DNA of 34,557 bases. It comes from Gammaproteobacteria bacterium (GTDB lineage Bacteria > Pseudomonadota > Gammaproteobacteria > Enterobacterales > Alteromonadaceae). This document shows positions 32,338 to 34,557 of this stretch, in pieces (the stretch's first letter is position 1; every line of letters starts with the position of its first letter). Below the pieces are notes generated by a model. That model was not told the origin of the DNA. It searched no databases and saw nothing but the letters and a program-made list of their open reading frames with translations. The DNA is taken from positions 1-34,557 of the forward strand of contig JABXID010000038.1 of assembly GCA_013373245.1 (NCBI GenBank), in the 5' to 3' direction. A program made the position numbers and the translations under genes.

Positions 32338-32472
32338 ATGTTTAGAGATTTTTTTAACGATCCAGTACTTTACTTGAGCTTTGGTATTTTAGGTTTAACA
32401 GTTATATTGATGGCATTTTACACTTGGTACTTCATTTCTAATGTAATGAACAGTAAACAAGAAGAAAAGTAA
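32338..32472 (+). CDS. 44-residue DUF3149-like inner-membrane protein
   Basis: A short protein, MFRDFFNDPVLYLSFGILGL at its start, with one membrane span at about 12-35 and a charged tail (NSKQEEK). It has the look of DUF3149 small membrane proteins, whose function is unknown. TGAGGAGA (about 32324-32331) is a strong ribosome site about 7 bases before the ATG. The TAA is at 32470-32472. The FNR-type promoter upstream suggests expression under low oxygen. Too small for most gene callers, but the ribosome site, promoter and membrane span together support it. Confidence 0.82.
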   Translation: MFRDFFNDPVLYLSFGILGLTVILMAFYTWYFISNVMNSKQEEK

Positions 32473-32620
32473 CCCTATTGATGTCACTGTAAAGCAAAAT
32501 TGTGCAGGTCATCATACTGAGCGGGTAGGTCAGCAGATTCTGTACAATTAAATATTTACACATTAAAAGATACAATATATCATCTCGACTCAATAATACT
32601 GAGCCAGTTGATATATTTTG

Positions 32621-32905
32621 ATGACGTTCCGCAAACTGATATTACATTGTTTTTTGTTGTGTGCTTTTTTTAGCGCACAGCATGCGTTTGCACAGCATCA
32701 AGTTTTCCATAACTCAGATCACCCAGCCGTCGAACAATGTGAGTTGTGTTCTCACGCTTCAAGCATTAAAAACATTACGTTTACGTCTTCGTTTGAATGG
32801 CCTACTGCGCCGACAAATTCGCTTCAATATGGCAAGTCGGATGCATTAAGCATTGAATCTAGGTTGTCGTCATCAAACAGCCGAGCCCCACCTGTACACC
32901 GTTAA
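32621..32905 (+). CDS. Small exported His/Cys protein upstream of the zinc receptor
   Basis: A 94-residue protein with a signal peptide ending AQHAFA^QHQ (about residue 24). The short mature part has His26, His30, His34, His45 and a CELC pair (Cys40, Cys43), a typical metal-binding set, and then a low-complexity Ser-rich tail. Similar small proteins beside ZnuD-like receptors are annotated as zinc-uptake chaperones; I recall this from genome annotation and it is not established here. I start at ATG 32621; an in-frame TTG at 32618 adds one residue. It precedes the TonB receptor by 57 bases on the same strand, so they are likely one operon. Confidence 0.7.
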   Translation: MTFRKLILHCFLLCAFFSAQHAFAQHQVFHNSDHPAVEQCELCSHASSIKNITFTSSFEWPTAPTNSLQYGKSDALSIESRLSSSNSRAPPVHR

Positions 32906-32962
32906 TCTTCGACTTTTATTCATTTTATTAAATTAGATTATTTACGTAGTACAGGATCAATC

Positions 32963-34557
32963 ATGTTAAAAACCATCACCACAGTGTTGGCGTTGTCATC
33001 GTCGTATGCAATGGCCGCAGAACTTACAGGCACAGTAACAGACCAAAATCAGCAACCGATTGCTAACGCAAAAATTGAATTGCATGGACAAGTCGGGGTT
33101 ATATATACAAATCAAAATGGTCAATTCACTATGACCACAGAGCAAGGTGACGTTGAGTTACACATCAGTGCGCCTGGTTATACACACGAAAACATAAACA
33201 TTGATGGCAACCAATCACAGGTTGAGATTGTACTGTCGAAAAATGCGATGGAATACATAGATGTTTATGCCACACCATTACATGGCTCTGCGCTGGAATC
33301 GGCAACGCCAATCACAGTGTTATCTGGTGAAGAGTTACAGCGTAATAATGCAGATACGTTAGGTGAAACGTTAAAGTCACAAGTAGGTATTCATTCAACG
33401 TTCTTTGGCCCAACAAGTGCTAGTCCAATTATTCGAGGCTTAGATGGTCCAAGAGTACTGATCACTCAAAACAGTTTAGATGCCGCCGATGCGTCTCGAG
33501 TTGGCCCAGACCATGTTGTTGCGACCGATACATCGACAGTAAAACAAGTTGAGATTTTACGCGGTCCTTCGACCTTGTTATTTGGTAACGGCGCCATTGG
33601 TGGCGTAATAAACATTGTTGATAATCGTGTGCCAACAAGCTCAGATTTTGAATTAGATTGGTCGTTAAAACATGAGACCGCAGCACAGGAAAATGAAGCT
33701 ACCATTAATTTCACTTCGGGTACGCAAAACTGGGCTTATCACTTTGATGCGTTCGCCCGTTCAAGTGACGATGTAGAAATTCCAGGCAATCCAGAGCACC
33801 ATGAAGATGAAAGTGAGGAAGAGCACGAAGCACATGATGACGAGTTTGATGGCACATTAGAAAATTCAGCTTCTGAATCAACGGGCTTCAATGTCGGTAC
33901 CAGTTATTTGCTGGACAATGGCTTTGTCGGCGTATCATTTGGCAAGTTAGACAAGCTTTACGGCATTCCAGGTCACTCACATGGTCATCACGAAGACGAG
34001 CATCATGATGAAGGCCACGACGCAGTTGAAGAGCATGAAGGCGAACATGAAGAGCACGGTGTTGAAGGAGACATGTCGCAACAGCGTATTCAGTTATTAA
34101 GCGATGTTAACATTAATCAATTCGGTATTGAGGCGATCAAAACCAAACTGGGTCTAACAGAATACCGTCATGCGGAACTTGAAGATGATATTGAAGGTAC
34201 TGTTTTCACCAATGATACCACTCAAGCAAAAGTAGATGTTTTACTAGCTGAAAAATTCGGTTGGCACAGTGCGGTTACATTTGACTACAAAACCACTGAC
34301 TTTAAAGCTGTAGGAGATGAAGCCTTCACTCCAGCATCAGAAACCAGCAGTAGTGCGTTGGCTTTGCTGACAGAAAAACACTTTGGTGACGTATTAGTTC
34401 AGTTGGGAGCTCGTATCGAACAAGTTGATATGGATACCGCAGAATTCGATATCACTGGCGAAATTGTTGAGCACCATGAAGAGCATGAGGAAGAAGCGCA
34501 TCATGATGAACATGAAATGCATGAAGAAGAGCATGAAGCACATGAGCAGCACATTGA
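32963..34557 (+). CDS. TonB-dependent receptor, ZnuD-like, partial (3' end outside the window)
   Basis: An outer-membrane receptor with 531 codons visible and no stop before the edge. AGGA lies 6 bases before the ATG. A signal peptide ends at AMA^AEL (about residue 18). A carboxypeptidase-regulatory-like domain follows (about 20-92), then the TonB box region (YIDVYATP), the plug (about 110-225; SPIIRGLDGPRVLI, VEILRGPSTLLFGNGAIGGVINI), then barrel strands. Three His/Asp/Glu-rich segments occur at about 278-294, 338-366 and 503-531. This mirrors ZnuD, which imports zinc across the outer membrane with TonB energy. Copper or nickel are possible alternatives. Total length of the family is about 700-800 residues, so roughly a third is missing. 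Confidence 0.92.
   Translation, partial: MLKTITTVLALSSSYAMAAELTGTVTDQNQQPIANAKIELHGQVGVIYTNQNGQFTMTTEQGDVELHISAPGYTHENINIDGNQSQVEIVLSKNAMEYIDVYATPLHGSALESATPITVLSGEELQRNNADTLGETLKSQVGIHSTFFGPTSASPIIRGLDGPRVLITQNSLDAADASRVGPDHVVATDTSTVKQVEILRGPSTLLFGNGAIGGVINIVDNRVPTSSDFELDWSLKHETAAQENEATINFTSGTQNWAYHFDAFARSSDDVEIPGNPEHHEDESEEEHEAHDDEFDGTLENSASESTGFNVGTSYLLDNGFVGVSFGKLDKLYGIPGHSHGHHEDEHHDEGHDAVEEHEGEHEEHGVEGDMSQQRIQLLSDVNINQFGIEAIKTKLGLTEYRHAELEDDIEGTVFTNDTTQAKVDVLLAEKFGWHSAVTFDYKTTDFKAVGDEAFTPASETSSSALALLTEKHFGDVLVQLGARIEQVDMDTAEFDITGEIVEHHEEHEEEAHHDEHEMHEEEHEAHEQHI

Follow-up and report, generated by a model that had tools for sequence, protein, structure and literature searches.

The window analysed here, the entire contig C110 (34,557 bp) of draft genome G000 from the genus Psychrosphaera (Gammaproteobacteria), carries at its right end an open reading frame (ORF) of 94 amino acids (aa), followed by the gene of a ZnuD-type TonB-dependent receptor, of which the first 531 codons are present. 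A preliminary description of this DNA had noted the CxxC and the His residues of the small protein, which we confirmed (Table 1), and had proposed it as a possible periplasmic metal acceptor. We observed a feature that had been overlooked there: the protein ends in RAPPVHR, 44 residues past the CxxC, so that the whole reads CxxC-X44-RAPP-X3-stop with the end SRAPPVHR. RAPP is described in the literature as a translation arrest motif. Most likely, the small protein is not a metal carrier but a ribosome-stalling leader peptide.

CruR (BP2923, DUF2946) of Bordetella pertussis is described as a copper-responsive upstream ORF (uORF) before a TonB-dependent transporter; 45 residues separate its CXXC from RAPP, which is followed by three more. 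Expression of the transporter depends on RAPP and the response to copper on CXXC, and CruR acts through Rho-dependent termination (PMC9426467). In vitro, translation of CruR arrests when the third and fourth codons of RAPP occupy the P and A sites, and TonB-dependent receptors are preceded by RAPP/RGPP uORFs more often than expected; zinc is absent from the main text of that paper and pairing with the ribosome-binding site (RBS) is not mentioned in the portions examined (PMC12992588). The window leader has the CXXC, the RAPP three residues from the C-terminus and a spacing within 1–2 residues of 45, and it directly precedes a metal-homeostasis gene, the ZnuD-like receptor, in a putative operon.

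We monitored the recurrence of this arrangement in 80 loci that had been fetched by the receptor alone and were the best 80 of 290. The pattern CxxC-X(25–60)-R[AGS]PP-X(0–14)-stop was found within 700 bp upstream of the receptor in 27 of the 80, and never on the reverse strand. With spacings of 25–60 allowed, 20 of these loci had 43, five had 44 and two had 45; the motif was RAPP in 25 and RGPP in two. A six-frame scan of the 80 loci (892,491 bp) returned 3473 ORFs of at least 60 codons, 31 of which end in R[AGS]PP, and the full motif with a spacing of 43–46 was present in 28 ORFs, all on the receptor strand and one per locus (28/80). When RAPP was not required, 28 loci had a small ORF upstream that combines CxxC with a hydrophobic stretch; 27 of them end in a RAPP-type motif, and the sole exception (L125) looks spurious. 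The motif-positive receptor loci belong to Psychrosphaera, Colwellia, Thalassotalea, Algicola, Thalassomonas, Pseudocolwellia and one Colwelliaceae bin. No leader motif was seen in the Rheinheimera, Pseudoalteromonas, Microbulbifer and Cellvibrio loci among the 80, nor in several Colwellia and Thalassotalea loci, some of which are second copies in leader-bearing genomes (L112, L137).

The leader sequence itself is little conserved, having an identity of 19–29% to 12 relatives. Searching the family with the window peptide gave matches in five of 147 genomes, namely its own, two with same-genus leaders and two with weak matches that contain stops and are not leaders. A profile search of the order matched 14 of 394 genomes (its own, nine with RAPP leaders, L018–L026, one with RSPP, L029, and three motifless, L027, L028 and L030), and a profile search of the class at E ≤ 0.01 matched 57 of 369, its own and some weak matches included. 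DUF2607 was tried as a counterpart and rejected, since two of 13 gave weak matches and the class search one weak match in 143 genomes, its leader having RAPP and only one Cys in the stretch shown.

Two sets of loci were used further. Set A consists of the window and the 27 receptor loci whose motif lies no more than 700 bp upstream; L067, having its motif farther upstream and outside the pairing test, and L095, which ends at its contig end, are both counted among the 53 "leaderless" loci. Set B comes from 38 loci found by the leader profile (L018–L026, L032–L060), from which the script dropped L036 (no long downstream ORF) as well as L046, L050 and L055 (no leader found), so that 34 were used. 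Three of the 34 (by subtraction L047, L052 and L053) lack the CxxC pattern, and the other 31, used for the motif and Zur counts, have a CxxC–RAPP spacing of 43–46 where 40–48 was allowed. In L047, L052, L053 and L189, RAPP and the preceding His residues are kept and CxxC is stretched or lost (e.g. CQIFFLC); a changed metal or ligand set is possible in these leaders.

Next to the motif, we observed that the bases following it match the RBS of the receptor. In the window, CCTGTAC, starting from the last RAPP proline codon, pairs with GTACAGG, which holds the receptor Shine–Dalgarno AGG; the region 32870–32990 folds with a z of −2.56, equalled or bettered by 2 of 200 shuffles. The same layout is built from other sequences elsewhere: CGCCTAA/TTAGGCG (L062), CGCTTGA/TCAGGCG (L065) and CAATAGATA/TATCTATTG (L085, L086, L108). 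We performed a permutation test on the duplex energy of the 33 nt beginning at the R codon, using the −24 to −1 region of the same locus and, as the comparison, those of the other loci, with start codons chosen by script. For set A (28 loci, window included), the energy was −9.45 kcal/mol with the own regions and −6.30 kcal/mol with the permuted ones (z −7.3; 0 of 20,000 permutations), and the z was −6.3 after dereplication to 18 loci; nine displaced controls in each gave z from −1.9 to +1.7. For set B (34 loci), the z was −9.1, or −8.1 for the dereplicated 28, and six displaced controls in each ranged from −2.4 to +1.2.

In CruR-type loci the pairing was not clear, with a z of −1.8 (p 0.040) for 20 loci and −1.1 for the dereplicated 16, four controls in each lying between −1.7 and +1.0. 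Ten of the 30 CruR-type loci were unusable here (eight had no start and two no motif) and 27 of the 30 entered the motif and Zur counts; this negative is the softer because of the unusable loci and because several starts are doubtful in high-GC DNA.

The 5′ arm of the pairing peaks at about nt 17–24 from the R codon and the 3′ arm at about −14 to −8. The first 23 nt take in half or more of the 5′ arm in 18/18 loci of set A and 26/29 of set B that have E ≤ −8. The leading edge of a stalled ribosome lies about 16 nt ahead of its P-site; if stalled on the RAPP prolines, a ribosome would have its front at the peak of the 5′ arm. For the family, the statistics support a Shine–Dalgarno sequestered by an arm that the stalled ribosome would cover; for the window alone they are suggestive, and the structure is a predicted one throughout.

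The surroundings of the leaders were then compared for signs of zinc control. We counted as a canonical Zur box at least 13 of 16 matches to the Zur consensus; this is a low-GC consensus and may miss boxes in other genomes. Operators of C. crescentus share the TGTTAT...ATAACA dyad of that Zur consensus (PMC4176598). Such a box lies upstream of the leader in 23 of the 28 set-A loci (0.27 expected), the other five being the window and four further Psychrosphaera, and upstream of the receptor in 44 of the 53 loci with no leader within 700 bp (0.60 expected). It was found in 1/31 loci of set B and 0/27 of the CruR type. The block AAAAGATACAATRTAWCAT is kept in 4/4 aligned Psychrosphaera upstream regions, the window included, and a diverged palindrome, GATACAATRTAWCAT, is common to the four; L064, a Psychrosphaera set-A locus, stood outside that alignment. 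Zinc control, as expected in the preliminary description, is thus suggested by the Zur operators of the relatives, the window's own site being degenerate.

Genes downstream of the leader relatives, among those listed and called by eye where not scanned with Pfam, are mostly those of an outer-membrane protein, a solute-binding protein and a permease in this order, or of a ZnuD-like receptor. In the four loci scanned for such genes, Pfam identified leader neighbours as ZnuA and an ABC-3 permease (L141), an ABC-3 permease (L144) and ZrgA (L142), and in L143 a FUR-family regulator divergent from the leader is closest to Zur (NCBIfam E 9.7e-38, 129.5 bits, cut-off 167). In L142 (G249), an RSPP relative heads a row of ZrgA, an ATP-binding cassette ATPase and an FtsX permease. 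At 2142–3320 of L141, and also in L018, L020 and L144, an outer-membrane protein of about 400 aa lies between the RAPP leader and the znuA-like genes; several of these have His-rich stretches, the one scanned had no Pfam or NCBIfam match, and it is possible that they represent an unannotated zinc porin. Elsewhere in G000 (contig C47, 4173–4187; L001, L162), a Zur-box-like sequence, GATATAATATAACAT, stands beside two genes, one encoding a small membrane protein that looks MerC-like by eye and the other a siderophore-type receptor. In P. aeruginosa, two adjacent genes, PA0433 (DUF2946) and the receptor gene PA0434, go up in response to N-acetylcysteine (PMC9431628, Table 2); its authors read the effect as zinc chelation, and the pair is not marked there as part of the Zur regulon.

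We also compared the leader with the CruR family directly. The Pfam model of DUF2946 (PF11162) weakly matches 8 of the 13 leaders of our first alignment (A2; best E 1.9e-4), and the window peptide is unmatched by it, for which reason a simple filing under DUF2946 was rejected. In a profile–profile comparison of 41 leaders with 21 CruR-type leaders, similarity extended over the CxxC–RAPP stretch (probability 94.3, E 1.1e-7); the motif was the criterion for choosing the rows of both alignments, which by construction makes Cys, R and P invariant and accounts for part of this score. The two kinds of leader differ around the CxxC: CPxC occurs in 0/28 leaders of set A, 0/31 of set B and 26/27 of the CruR type, whereas at least two His residues in the 20 residues before CxxC are found in 28/28, 31/31 and 16/27, respectively. 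On these sequence comparisons, we file the window leader as a remote relative of the DUF2946/CruR family, and not as a member.

Together, the kept spacing, the kept C-terminal end and the RBS-matched bases are the mark of a regulator that acts as a nascent chain, and not of a mature protein that binds metal. We consider it likely that the 94-aa ORF is a cis-acting leader controlling translation of the ZnuD-like receptor, in which a stall at RAPP would keep the RBS open when zinc is short and zinc would release it; both the stalling and the zinc sensing are what we infer. In the proposed scheme, shortage of zinc would make Zur let the operon be transcribed, as a first layer of control. The ribosome translating the leader would then stall with the RAPP prolines in the P and A sites and cover the 5′ arm of the hairpin, leaving the Shine–Dalgarno open, so that the receptor is made and takes up zinc with its His-rich surface loops. 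At the arrest, the CxxC, 44 residues before RAPP, would just have left the exit tunnel. When zinc is present, it would bind the emerged His/CxxC segment, and folding or pulling would release the arrest; the ribosome would leave, the hairpin close and the receptor be shut off. The type of control reads as SecM- or CutF-like, a stalled ribosome masking the anti-Shine–Dalgarno arm. As the downstream gene encodes an uptake receptor, the metal should release the arrest, like copper with CruR and unlike the case of CutF. The finished peptide could possibly have a role beside this leader function.

The hairpin of the window is individually modest, and the case for its leader rests on the family. With slightly better than even confidence, we further propose that these leaders form a Gammaproteobacteria-wide zinc branch of nascent-chain sensors that act by opening the RBS, as a second layer under Zur in some lineages, and that may replace Zur where no box was found (30/31 of set B).

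Several observations weigh against this interpretation. The pairing in the window, taken alone, is only suggestive, being equalled by 165 of 3000 Markov and 11 of 3000 plain shuffles, and pairing is weak (E above −8) in 10/28 loci of set A and 5/34 of set B. A few displaced controls were low (z −2.4 and −2.2 in set B, p 0.010 and 0.014; z −1.8 at offset −120 in set A, p 0.039), probably because base composition is shared within a locus, and they fall short of the main values. The Zur-like site of the window has 12 of 16 matches to the consensus (p 0.105 by shuffles), and window-type sites with up to two mismatches number 19 genome-wide against 20 for the reversed pattern, which is chance level. 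CruR and CutF sense copper, and the metal of the present leader was read from the neighbouring genes. The lack of a PF11162 match for the window peptide counts here as well, and so do relatives without a clean CxxC (C-X5-C in L047 and L052, none in L053). Since 52 of the 80 receptor loci, further Colwellia and Thalassotalea included, have no such leader, it is dispensable in many loci. Finally, RAPP by itself is often insufficient for a stall, as most of the RAPP-like sequences of E. coli and B. subtilis tested did not stall (PMC10987492).

Other explanations were weighed on the same evidence. The leader might be a copper sensor of the CruR kind, in which a stall at RAPP protects the transcript from Rho termination until copper releases it, and in which the RBS pairing has no part. 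The anatomy and spacing shared with CruR and the profile–profile similarity, itself partly by construction, argue for this, and in 25 of the 27 set-A loci besides the window, C outnumbers G in the stretch that begins 60 nt upstream of RAPP and runs to the start of the receptor; as a sign of Rho, this C-over-G excess is weak and unspecific. The Zur boxes upstream, the ZnuD, ZnuA and ZrgA genes downstream, a pairing signal that is not clear in CruR-type loci and the different CxxC surroundings (CPxC and preceding His counts) speak against it, and we regard this explanation as unlikely. A leader that stalls to monitor Sec export or the thiol redox state, in the manner of SecM and not in response to a metal, seems to us somewhat less likely again: Sec/YidC-related arrest peptides are likewise built from a localization signal and a RAPP-like motif at the C-terminus (PMC10987492), and the CxxC could serve as a redox pair, but the downstream genes seen are those of receptors, outer-membrane proteins and zinc uptake, not of Sec or thioredoxin functions, 59/59 leaders counted have at least two His residues in the 20 residues before CxxC, and the CxxC–RAPP spacing is held at 43–45 in 27/27 loci.

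A secreted protein that accepts or chaperones zinc in the periplasm together with the receptor, in line with the acceptor of the preliminary description, would fit the signal-peptide-like start, the CxxC, the His residues and the linkage to the receptor gene. We nevertheless rejected this role and leave it only a slim chance. The distance between CxxC and RAPP and the C-terminus are kept while identity to the 12 relatives is low, the pairing with the downstream RBS is a property of the nucleotides, and a studied exported relative, CutF, is described as rapidly degraded on translocation (PMC9973294). That RAPP and the pairing arose by chance in an untranslated ORF is a negligible prospect: the window hairpin alone is not extreme, but the motif recurs with its spacing kept, and two permutation results stand against chance. 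A zinc-responsive leader that opens the receptor RBS thus remains our preferred explanation.

Judged by its sequence, the receptor itself is unremarkable: a putative zinc receptor of the ZnuD type, strongly equipped with His-rich loops. Its assignment in the preliminary description held up: NCBIfam ZnuD is the best family for the window part (E 3.9e-69, 234 bits) and for a full orthologue (E 1.3e-101, 341 bits), neither reaching the curated cut-off of 950 bits, and a copper-receptor model gave E 4e-4 on the window part. The three segments described as dense in His, Asp and Glu were likewise reproduced: residues 278–294, 338–366 and 503–531 consist of these residues to 88%, 76% and 83%, and the remainder to 16%. 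Counted in 15-residue windows, the receptor has three such segments, and at least one appeared in 145 and at least two in 1 of 2000 residue shuffles; because only 1 of 2000 gave two, the segments are not an effect of composition. All of the 80 ZnuD-like receptors scanned have one to five His-rich segments each, mostly at four recurring places, and the loops are therefore a trait of the receptor group.

As the window protein is incomplete, fold work was done on the 813-aa orthologue of L065, modelled with AlphaFold2 (predicted local distance difference test score, pLDDT, 82.8; predicted template modelling score 0.83). The solved structures nearest to the model are those of ZnuD, 4RDT, 4RDR and 4RVW (E 1e-46 to 6e-43), the next family following at 3e-30. 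The model has 22 barrel strands when the short strands at 557–587 are counted as loop and 513–533 as one strand, and its long His-rich connections follow strands 3, 5 and 15; the third His-rich segment of the window was placed after strand 11 from its flanking sequence. In receptors of this class, the connections after odd strands are extracellular. The strand order of the model thus supports the placement of the His-rich segments in extracellular barrel loops, and not in periplasmic turns, as had been proposed for the window; confidence is below 50 in parts of the His-rich connections (302–320, 366–379 and 642–661).

The 3′ end of the receptor gene, which the preliminary description had called for, was recovered on the minus strand of contig C285 (L014). 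C285 probably carries a strain variant of this gene, because its 233-bp overlap with the window (34325–34557) carries 17 mismatches; the final 77 bases, within a His-rich repeat, are identical, and the contig end looks like a strain-variation break between two contigs of the draft genome. Read jointly, window and C285 give a receptor of 831 aa with a fourth His-rich segment at 652–678 and a weaker acidic one at 594–608. The next gene on C285 (Rsd-like, by eye) converges on the receptor, and therefore no partner transporter follows in the same direction. ZnuA was rejected as an inner-membrane partner in Psychrosphaera, no ZnuA-type binding protein being found in three of three genomes (G000, G036 and G077; L061 and L065 come from the latter two, respectively).

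Upstream of the leader, at window 32338–32472, lies a 44-codon ORF for a small membrane protein (MFRDFFNDPVLYLS...); L062 has a similar sequence in its upstream region. Nothing in the window matched in the Rfam and tRNA scans. The coordinates of the features are collected in Table 1.

Table 1. Features of the leader–receptor locus at the right end of the window
Feature	Position	Strand	Remarks
Zur-like palindrome GATACAATATATCAT	32569–32583	none	37 bp 5′ of the leader ATG
Leader ORF, 94-aa CxxC–RAPP arrest-type peptide (the small protein of the preliminary description)	32621–32905	+	ATG 32621, stop 32903–32905
Putative leader signal peptide, residues about 1–24	32621–32692	+	By eye: basic start, hydrophobic core, AFA/QHQ
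CELC (CxxC) codons, residues 40–43	32738–32749	+	His26, His30 and His34 before, His45 after
RAPP codons, residues 88–91, putative arrest site	32882–32893	+	Position by CruR toeprinting (PMC12992588)
5′ arm CCTGTAC of the predicted RBS hairpin	32891–32897	+	From the Pro91 codon on
3′ arm GTACAGG	32949–32955	+	Includes the receptor Shine–Dalgarno AGG
ZnuD-like TonB-dependent receptor, 5′ part, 531 codons	32963–34557	+	ATG 32963, open to the window end
Receptor N-terminal carboxypeptidase-regulatory-like domain, residues 21–91	33023–33235	+	Pfam PF13620, E 3.1e-12
Receptor plug domain, residues 111–215	33293–33607	+	Pfam PF07715, E 4.6e-18
His/acid-rich loop, strands 3–4, residues 274–300	33782–33862	+	Alignment to the orthologue and its model
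His/acid-rich loop, strands 5–6, residues 335–371	33965–34075	+	Alignment to the orthologue and its model
His/acid-rich loop, strands 11–12, residues 496 to contig end	34448–34557	+	Flanking sequence by eye; the modelled orthologue has no such insert

What is understood of zinc control in bacteria concerns chiefly transcription factors such as Zur. If our interpretation is right, zinc would also be sensed on the ribosome, in a second and faster layer located at the site from which exported proteins emerge. Metal sensing by leaders such as CruR and CutF would then reach beyond copper to another metal, with a different read-out, and small exported ORFs preceding zinc genes would gain a function. 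The pairing between post-RAPP bases and the RBS offers a sequence-level test for any genome and may separate Rho protection from RBS opening. Leaders of the CruR and CutF kind are already known; what appears new is a zinc-linked RAPP branch with RBS control, which our searches of the openly licensed literature did not reveal, no zinc leader of such a kind being met among the titles and abstract openings listed.

Compared with known systems, the receptor resembles ZnuD of Neisseria meningitidis (4RDT, 4RDR, 4RVW) in its fold, on the orthologue model, but shares only 22–23% identity with it and has an extra N-terminal carboxypeptidase-like domain; it also carries several His/acid-rich loops. The leader is like CruR in being an exported small ORF before a TonB-dependent transporter gene, with a CxxC–RAPP spacing of 44 (45 in CruR) and, in both, three residues after RAPP. 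It differs in its zinc-type receptor and, in relatives, Zur boxes instead of copper, in its length (94 aa against 145 aa), in its His residues before a CxxC that is not CPxC, and in the matched post-RAPP/RBS pairing, which is not clear in CruR-type loci, CruR acting through Rho termination. With CutF of Rhodobacter capsulatus (PMC9973294), it would share the nascent exported metal sensor and the downstream Shine–Dalgarno shielded by a stem–loop; CutF, however, carries CxxxC together with a proline motif of another kind, and its downstream gene is turned on by copper, whereas here the metal should turn the receptor off. SecM and the RAPP/RGPP peptides ApdA and ApdP (PMC10987492) likewise combine a C-terminal arrest motif and a localization signal with control of a downstream gene, but they monitor protein localization, while the present leader has a His/CxxC segment and precedes zinc-uptake genes. 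As described, the RAPP/RGPP uORFs before TonB-dependent receptors (PMC12992588) are of the same general class as the present leader.

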